55,357 nt of DNA from a virus. Location: positions 1 to 55,357 of the IMG/VR virus record IMGVR_UViG_3300030110_000758; one strand, written 5' to 3'. The notes under the pieces were generated by a model. It saw only the letters and a list, made by a program, of their open reading frames with translations. It was not told the origin of the DNA and did no database searches. Shown in pieces: positions 38,158 to 50,918 of the stretch. Each line of letters starts with the position of its first letter. Within the stretch, counting starts at the first letter, position 1. Made by a program: the position numbers and the translations under genes.

Positions 38158-38355
38158 TCAAGTTTGCTTTTCAGGTTTAGGCATTTCCACACATTTACCT
38201 AGTACAAAGGAACTAGGTGTAGGCTTACTAGCGTTTAACACGTTCATTTGTGTAGCTAAACTGGAAACACATGTATCCATTGTAGGGTACAAAACTTGGT
38301 CTGACGCTACTTTATAACCACTATCCATAAACATTACAAATACTATTACAAACAT
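38158..38355 (-). CDS. Small exported two-cysteine protein, 65 aa
   Basis: Residues 1-12 are hydrophobic (F-V-I-V-F-V-M-F-M) followed by polar sequence with two Cys, M-D-T-C-V-S-S-L and L-G-K-C-V-E-M-P, about 25 residues apart. The same design is seen at 2908-3099 and 47846-48118 on the other strand, so I treat the three as a family. The short hydrophobic start suggests export or membrane anchoring with one disulfide. TAATG coupling to the gene upstream. Confidence 0.6.
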   Translation of the reverse strand: MFVIVFVMFMDSGYKVASDQVLYPTMDTCVSSLATQMNVLNASKPTPSSFVLGKCVEMPKPEKQT

Positions 38356-38612
38356 TATTCATACTTTCTTTTTCTATCTGGATCTAAAACCTCATTTGAC
38401 TCTAAGTAACCCTCTAAGTACATTGCACGTTCAACATGATCCAGTGTATATTTTTTTCCTGTACGATTATAAATAGCCTCACGAACATAGAACACATCTG
38501 ACTTAGGTATGTGTACTTTGTTTAGAAAACGTGTGTCTTCTGATGCTAAAGCCTCATAAAAGTCTTCAATTACGGACTCACTTGCATATAGTTGTACCTT
38601 TTTTTTGTACAT
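38355..38612 (-). CDS. First gene of the leftward arm, 85-aa protein of unknown function
   Basis: I choose ATG 38612; a TTG six bases upstream is also possible. The protein is charged and mostly helical, with V-F-Y-V-R-E-A-I-Y-N-R-T-G-K-K-Y-T-L-D-H and A-M-Y-L-E-G-Y-L, a pattern I have met in small marine phage proteins. Being first behind the leftward promoter, it may be made earliest among late genes and could be regulatory, but no DNA-binding motif is clear. Confidence 0.65.
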   Translation of the reverse strand: MYKKKVQLYASESVIEDFYEALASEDTRFLNKVHIPKSDVFYVREAIYNRTGKKYTLDHVERAMYLEGYLESNEVLDPDRKRKYE

Positions 38613-38645
38613 TGTCAAGTCTTTATTTATAAAAAAGTAAAAAAA

Positions 38646-38719
38646 TACTACAAACGTCTAGATGTACATGAGGGAGAGGAGACACAGATGGAGTTTGTAC
38701 TCTCTAAACGCTTGTAGTA
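38646..38719 (-). terminator. Leader hairpin with T tract (attenuator or small RNA terminator)
   Basis: An imperfect inverted repeat pairs 38646-38667 with 38697-38719 (about 19 of 22 positions) around a 29-base loop. Read leftward, the stem is followed at once by seven T's (38639-38645 side) and a second T-rich run, as in an intrinsic terminator. It lies in the leader of the leftward promoter, about 40 bases after the predicted start of transcription, so it could stop most transcripts or make a short RNA of about 125 bases. Confidence 0.65.
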
Positions 38720-38725
38720 CTTTAA

Positions 38726-38885
38726 GTTTAACTACAAGTTATTATTATTATAGTAGTTATGTAATTATAATAGCATGTGTTAAGTTATATGTCAATAGTT
38801 AATTTATATTTATTTATATTATTAATAGTTTAACTATAAGTTGTACTATCCTATGTCCAATTTCTTATATTTTAACTATAAAGTT
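38726..38885. repeat. Three palindromic operator-like repeats
   Basis: GTTTAACTACAAGTT (38726-38740), GTTTAACTATAAGTT (38828-38842) and TTTAACTATAAAGTT (38871-38885) share an AACT...AGTT palindrome. They flank the leftward promoter, one just downstream of its start and two upstream of its -35 box, as expected for binding sites of a regulator or an initiator protein. Confidence 0.6.
38767..38795 (-). promoter_or_regulatory. Leftward sigma70-type promoter of the late arm
   Basis: On the minus strand TTGACA (38790-38795), a 17-base spacer and TATTAT (38767-38772). This is near consensus in both boxes and spacing. Transcription would start near 38760 and run through the leader hairpin into the genes below 38612. 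Confidence 0.8.
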
Positions 38886-49686: not shown

Positions 49687-49697
49687 AGGAGAGACAG

Positions 49698-50918
49698 ATG
49701 GAGTTGGCACTAATAAGAACCTTGATGGACAAGGAGTTCTACGAAAACAATAAAGGTATTCGCACTCCAGATAATTTATTTAGTAAAGATCTACGTGGTA
49801 TAAAAAGAACTTTAGACTACGCTATGGAGACATACGAGAGGAGCATAACACCAGCAGAATTAGAAGGACTATTCTTCACACACAACGTGTTGACTACAGC
49901 TAACAAAGATTCTTACAGAGAGTTGTTCAAGAAGATAAACAAAGCAGAACCTATGTCGTCTGACATTGCACAGGAAGTTATGGGTAATTTGTTTCAGAAG
50001 TTAGTAGGAGAGGAGATAGCTAACTTGGGCGTTAAGTATGTCAACGGTGCAGAGAATACACTGGAGCCTATACGTAAAATAATAGAAGACTATCAAGATG
50101 ATTTCATGCCTAACTTGAAGATTGATTGGGGTGACATATCTATTGACACCTTACTAGAGAAGGCTGACGTACAAGCTAAGTGGAAGTTTAATATACCATC
50201 TCTTCAAAGACGTATAGAGGGTGTGTCAGGTGGTCATTTAGTTTTGGTAGGTGCAAGACCAAATACAGGCAAGACATCTTTCCATGCTTCGATCATAGCT
50301 TCTGAAGATGGGTTTGCTAGGCAGGGTGCTAAGTGTATAGTTCTGTGCAATGAAGAATCCTATGATCGTGTAGGTGCAAGGTATCTAAGTGCTGCATCTA
50401 ACATGTCTATGGATGAAGTTAAAGGTAACTATGCATTAGCTGCAACTAGATACAAACCTGTGCACGATAACATTAAGATCAAGGATAGCACAGGTAAAGA
50501 TATGCGCTGGGTTGAGGCTGTAGTTAAGGCATACCAGCCTGACATTTTGGTGTTGGATATGGGTGACAAGTTTGCTAGTAAGGGTAGTGCCGACTCGCAT
50601 GTGTATCTCAAAGACGCAGCGATACATGCACGTAACATAGCGAAGCAGTATGACTGTGCTATCATCTGGATGTCACAACTGTCTGCTGATGCTGAAGGTA
50701 AAGTTTACGTAGATCAATCTATGATGGAAGGTAGTAAGACAGGCAAGGCAGCAGAGTGTGATTTAATGATCTTGATTTCTAAGAACCCACAAGTGGAGGG
50801 CCAAGATGAACAAGATTCACAAAGACATTTGAACATAGCTAAGAATAAACTACGTGGTGGATGGCATGGTGTTGTACACTGTGAGTTAGACGGTGATAGA
50901 TCAAGGTACACAGTATGA
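49698..50918 (+). CDS. Replicative DNA helicase, DnaB/RecA-fold, 406 aa
   Basis: Unwinds DNA at the fork. Residues 1-150 are a helical N-terminal domain. The RecA-fold begins near 168 with Walker A G-A-R-P-N-T-G-K-T-S at 185-194, a catalytic E pair in C-N-E-E-S near 218-220, Walker B I-L-V-L-D-M-G with D287, and a Gln sensor in W-M-S-Q-L-S. I use ATG 49698 with AAGGAGAGACAG just upstream, five codons inside the longest frame. The start region is nearly complementary to the loop of the leader hairpin at 38646-38719. Confidence 0.88.
   Translation: MELALIRTLMDKEFYENNKGIRTPDNLFSKDLRGIKRTLDYAMETYERSITPAELEGLFFTHNVLTTANKDSYRELFKKINKAEPMSSDIAQEVMGNLFQKLVGEEIANLGVKYVNGAENTLEPIRKIIEDYQDDFMPNLKIDWGDISIDTLLEKADVQAKWKFNIPSLQRRIEGVSGGHLVLVGARPNTGKTSFHASIIASEDGFARQGAKCIVLCNEESYDRVGARYLSAASNMSMDEVKGNYALAATRYKPVHDNIKIKDSTGKDMRWVEAVVKAYQPDILVLDMGDKFASKGSADSHVYLKDAAIHARNIAKQYDCAIIWMSQLSADAEGKVYVDQSMMEGSKTGKAAECDLMILISKNPQVEGQDEQDSQRHLNIAKNKLRGGWHGVVHCELDGDRSRYTV

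Follow-up and report, generated by a model that had tools for sequence, protein, structure and literature searches.

The window, that is the whole stretch of DNA analysed here, is the virus record IMGVR_UViG_3300030110_000758 with a length of 55,357 bases. Leftward it carries terminase, portal and capsid genes, and rightward genes for an MTase, an integrase, ThyX, a DnaB-like helicase and a DNA polymerase. By this gene content and by the first leftward protein, ORF87, we place the window among the HMO-2011-type podoviruses, which are very common ocean viruses of bacteria; the nearest isolates are the Roseobacter phages CRP-603, CRP-2 and CRP-207. A hairpin element sits where the leftward and rightward genes diverge, immediately before ORF87 (Table 1). 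ORF87 has no assigned function, and its start (38606-38618, minus strand) is embedded in TTGACAATG, a conserved sequence that most relatives with the hairpin retain and that also occurs in the hairpin-less CRP-1, CRP-345 and HMO-2011. The TTGACA at this conserved start is also a -35 hexamer.

Table 1. Positions of the features at the junction and at the candidate target in the window
Feature	Position	Strand	Basis and remarks
ORF87	38355..38612	-	conserved; opens the leftward operon of packaging and structural genes
U tract, intrinsic-terminator-like	38625..38641	-	sequence; most relatives retain a T tract
Predicted small RNA, about 125-130 nt	38630..38760	-	start and end inferred from promoter, fold and U tract; conserved in relatives
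Long hairpin, terminator-like	38642..38723	-	21 + 5 pairs; fold, covariation of helix 2, G-U against A-C counts
UC-rich loop AACUCCAUCUGUGUCUCCUCUCCCUCA, 27 nt	38669..38695	-	anti-Shine-Dalgarno core UGUGUCUCCUC, kept in nearly all relatives
5' hairpin, AU-rich loop AAUAAUAAUAA	38729..38759	-	fold; helix 1 of the alignment fold
Sigma70-type promoter, TTGACA-17 nt-TATTAT, TG-extended	38767..38795	-	11/12 consensus matches
Helicase ribosome site and start (ATG 49698)	49687..49705	+	complementary to the loop at 18/19 positions
DnaB-like replicative helicase	49698..50918	+	PHROG 19, 5e-47; leading candidate target

The leader hairpin and T tract given in the preliminary description are present, with a stem of 21 + 5 pairs and with UAUUUUUUUACUUUUUU directly after the long stem. 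The minus-strand RNA from 38618 to 38760 folds at -35.3 kcal/mol with z = -5.7, none of 200 shuffles being as good, and the fold of the plus strand in the same region is unremarkable (z = -0.5). Within the fold, the 27-nt loop has a mean unpaired probability of 0.93. The promoter columns are conserved in an alignment of 20 relatives, and a -35/-10 match is found in 118 of 132 hairpin-bearing leaders. With a promoter before the hairpin and a U tract after it, the natural product would be a discrete RNA of about 125-130 nt. Four features thus speak strongly for the discrete leftward leader RNA, of around 125 bases as described before: its promoter, the covarying hairpin, the U tract and the G-U strand bias reported below. 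Relatives also conserve the small 5' hairpin with the AAUAAUAAUAA loop, which lies after the promoter and before the long hairpin; with its A/U-rich loop it could serve as a stability or Hfq-type element. Searches of the window and nine relatives against Rfam 15 give no match at the gathering score, the below-threshold miRNA hits being at chance level.

On the plus strand, the loop reads AGGAGACACAGATGGAGTT at 38677-38695 and the helicase start region reads AGGAGAGACAGATGGAGTT at 49687-49705. The two copies are identical at 18 of 19 positions, so that the match reported previously exists, only with its coordinates shifted by 1-2 bases. With up to 3 mismatches allowed, AGGAGANACAGATGGAGTT is matched in the window at these two sites only, with 0.03 expected by chance. 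When duplex partners of the loop are ranked over the whole window, the helicase start, which lies 11 kb from the hairpin element, is the best after the loop's own complement (-37 kcal/mol, the next being -27).

We then consider the relatives, whose leaders were fetched from IMG/VR via ORF87 homologues. Most of the first leader set show a long hairpin with a UC-rich loop of 13-30 nt, and a test for a UC tract within an inverted repeat is passed by 132 of 154 distinct ORF87 leaders and by none of the shuffled controls. Stem length varies from some 20 to over 40 pairs and the stem sequences diverge strongly, while the loop core UGUGUCUCCUC hardly changes. A separate scan of viral contigs for the exact 14-mer TGTGTCTCCTCTCC, independent of ORF87, shows that all 26 copies with ORF87 in the same piece lie 74-102 nt upstream of it on the same strand; the loop of a long hairpin holds 24 of them, compared with 4 of 54 copies elsewhere. 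The element is present in the isolates CRP-603, CRP-2 and CRP-207, and the UC hairpin is absent from CRP-1, CRP-9, CRP-13, CRP-345 and HMO-2011. In five leaders (L304, L277, L294, L307 and L313) the UC-rich loop is UUAGUCUCCUCCUCACUC, the hairpin has no directly adjoining U tract, and a second palindrome lies between the UC hairpin and ORF87, an alternative layout of the same element. A genome search for prophages with the element gives a single ORF87 relative, on a planctomycete MAG contig without the UC hairpin. This protein, with 60% identity, is encoded on contig L365 of the Blastopirellula MAG NORP48; the contig probably comes from a phage and was misbinned, or else it points to an unexpected host.

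The alignment of 20 relatives supports two helices, with 95.7% of cells paired, a share that drops to 23-43% when the structures are slid. Its covariation score is 0.336, against 0.162 in shuffles, and cells changed on both sides number 51 against 17. Over 54 stems, aligned without favouring either wobble type, 91 G-U and 25 A-C mismatches are counted. Such an excess of G-U is what a minus-strand RNA under selection would show, and is not expected of a DNA palindrome; the element is a conserved RNA, read leftward on the minus strand. That the junction holds instead a DNA-level element (a replication origin, a recombination site or a repressor operator), or a palindrome arisen by chance that carries a copy of a gene-start context, is exceedingly improbable: the inverted repeat does lie within a large intergenic region and a common start context does exist in this phage, but the stems covary, the plus-strand ATG is not conserved, and the wobble asymmetry speaks against a DNA palindrome. 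The same plus strand had been read as a possible start of a nine-codon peptide at 38688, or as a relic of a duplicated gene start. In relatives such as L083, CRP-603 and G008 it keeps GGAGAC and lacks the ATG, and both ideas fail because the ATG is not retained in relatives while the loop core stays.

By its letters the loop is an anti-Shine-Dalgarno sequence, and its unpaired seed is complementary to the ribosome sites of candidate targets and conserved in relatives. To rank these targets, genes were called by one simple procedure in the 12 genomes having both parts, and ordered by their duplex energy with the genome's own loop; as several of the 12 are close kin, they amount to about nine effective lineages. 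On the whole, the helicase start has a mean rank of 0.08 among about 60 genes, the best of 25 ortholog groups. After Shine-Dalgarno strength is regressed out, its residual rank is 0.13 (0.28 for the next group), and its mean contiguous complement is 9.5 nt (6.6 for the next group). Control loops all place the helicase worse than observed, at 0.30 when shuffled, 0.23 for a plain anti-Shine-Dalgarno and 0.15 when reversed, and block-shuffled loops reach the observed helicase value in 0 of 120 sets. At the helicase start the core match is 8.1 nt in hairpin-bearing phages and 5.1 nt in hairpin-lacking ones (p = 5e-4, uncorrected for phylogeny). The helicase match is weak in G003, G012, G023, G025, G035 and G019, and early starts other than that of the helicase also match the loop. 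GGAGAY/GAGACA is found near 66 of 381 early starts and 16 of 327 late starts; early genes fit the loop better than late genes, mostly via stronger Shine-Dalgarnos. These results support, at the family level, a predicted fit of the conserved core to early ribosome sites, with the helicase best.

The lower match of the late starts would also agree with a small RNA directed at the host, which lowers the translation of host mRNAs and spares the worse-matching structural genes of the phage. The loop is a generic anti-Shine-Dalgarno sequence, and ORF87, without a Shine-Dalgarno at its start, has the poorest loop and Shine-Dalgarno ranks among the 25 ortholog groups. However, the best matches are to early starts of the phage itself, and chiefly to that of the helicase, and we regard a host-directed role as very unlikely.

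Whether individual loops are adapted to the helicase of their own genome is a narrower matter. The preliminary description took the loop as antisense to the helicase ribosome site and start codon, an off-switch acting when the late promoter fires. For a loop evolved strictly for this purpose speak the 18/19 match, unique in the window, the place of the helicase as the best conserved target, and joint changes of loop and start in several genomes, for example G060 (CUUGUCUCCU with AGGAGACAAG) and G007 (UAGUCUCCUC with GAGGAGACUA). On the other hand, the close relative G001 has the same loop as the window but another sequence at its helicase ribosome site, and other early starts match too. Comparing the pairing of own and permuted loops in 35 genomes of 23 lineages, own loops against those of other genomes give p = 0.07 by permutation, so helicase-specific coevolution is not claimed. 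We consider a strictly helicase-specific antisense unlikely. What holds of the earlier pairing claim is the conserved loop and the helicase as the best conserved start in the 12 genomes; a maintained antisense to the helicase alone is not supported, and the co-variation of loop and helicase start proposed earlier as a check is seen in individual pairs and falls short of significance overall. As judged from sequence, the conserved part is the anti-Shine-Dalgarno core and not the 19-mer, and the 18/19 match is special to the window phage; recent tuning and chance could each explain its extra match to AUGGAGUU. Separately, the stretch directly before the helicase start occurs in at least three unrelated versions among helicases 93-99% identical (L163-L173; 49640-49700 in the window), which suggests frequent swapping of the gene preceding the helicase.

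The position of the hairpin bears on the leftward operon as well. The gap between the hairpin and ORF87 is only about 35 nt, and the only visible promoter of the leftward operon precedes the hairpin; hence part of the transcription probably stops at the hairpin and the operon would depend on read-through, as in the layout of lambda PR'-tR'. Lambda Q at tR' is the model of relief by an antiterminator, and the whole element could be such a late-operon attenuator, mainly an intrinsic terminator that stands between a constitutive promoter and the structural genes and is relieved by an antiterminator, with the loop as the site of a phage or host protein for read-through and the ribosome-site match secondary. 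The order of promoter, hairpin, U tract and structural operon agrees with this, as do the lack of room for another promoter before ORF87 and the conservation of the structure in most leaders, and the conserved loop could indeed bind a protein instead. Yet terminator loops usually vary freely, while here the loop is the most conserved part, and its conserved letters are those of an anti-Shine-Dalgarno and outdo shuffled and reversed loops in placing the helicase first. Attenuation as the main function is rather doubtful in our view. For ORF87 as a possible antiterminator, structure prediction gives a mean pLDDT of 59.9, too poor for use.

The reading we prefer, to which we give about an even chance, joins attenuation with pairing: a leader from the sigma70 promoter ends as a small RNA of the phage whose anti-Shine-Dalgarno loop probably damps early translation, with the helicase as the best-supported target, while the hairpin attenuates the structural operon. 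Transcription from the host-type sigma70 promoter that heads the leftward structural genes would give a short leader RNA, folding into the small 5' hairpin and the long hairpin followed by the U tract. The transcript would end at the U tract, at about 125-130 nt, except where the polymerase continues into ORF87 and on along the packaging and structural genes. The loop, exposed and UC-rich with its core UGUGUCUCCUC, would then pair with the ribosome sites of the rightward early mRNAs, the helicase being the best-supported among them, and lower their translation. The production of the RNA, its termination, the pairing in the cell and the translational repression are what we infer here. The pairing length of a loop inside a closed hairpin may be limited by topology. 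Moreover, since the promoter is sigma70-like, the terminated RNA could be made early, and a helicase shut-off need not be late; an early and a late appearance of the RNA would both be compatible with a promoter of this type. More tentatively, and short of an even chance, the terminator-like leader hairpin may double as a trans-acting repressor of the helicase and other early genes, coupling the onset of the structural operon to the end of replication. The loop RNA may in this way help to switch the infection from DNA copying to particle building. A regulatory RNA at the early/late junction would be a first handle on control of the HMO-2011-type infection programme, and it is directly testable because cultured isolates (CRP-2, CRP-603 and CRP-207) carry the element. 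The literature searched on HMO-2011-type phages has no mention of promoters, terminators or small RNAs.

Among known systems, the layout of lambda 6S and StxS, a promoter and then an intrinsic terminator heading the structural operon, is found here in the sequence. As summarised in PMC7873438 (after Sy et al. 2020), StxS of Stx phages is a small RNA from the late promoter PR' and the terminator tR'; it undergoes RNase E processing and associates with Hfq, and its targets are stx1B and rpoS. The phage leader resembles it as an early-terminated late-promoter RNA against the ribosome site of a phage gene, here predicted from sequence; unlike in StxS, the pairing loop is on the terminator-like hairpin itself, the two have no homology, and Q-type control is conjectural here. 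Lambda OOP RNA and P22 sar RNA are also short phage antisense RNAs controlling phage genes by pairing (PMC12197685), but they are encoded opposite or next to their targets, while the candidate target of the leader is distant. The ar14/NfeR1 small RNAs of rhizobia, in the alpha-proteobacteria, have an ultraconserved anti-Shine-Dalgarno motif in hairpin loops on highly variable stems, with three hairpins each bearing an identical CCUCCUCCC, and pair with the translation start regions of mRNAs to repress translation (PMC10746234). The constant anti-Shine-Dalgarno loop motif on variable stems is shared by the phage element, although no sequence relation between the two is found, and the phage RNA has one UC-rich loop with the core UGUGUCUCCUC, its 5' loop being AU-rich. 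In addition, ar14/NfeR1 are bacterial, while the phage RNA is a late-operon leader with its anti-Shine-Dalgarno loop on a terminator-like hairpin. One RNA would unite the terminated late-promoter RNAs and the alpha-proteobacterial anti-Shine-Dalgarno loops; the kind of regulator is known, while the RNA family and the combination of a terminator-like hairpin with an anti-Shine-Dalgarno loop appear to be new.
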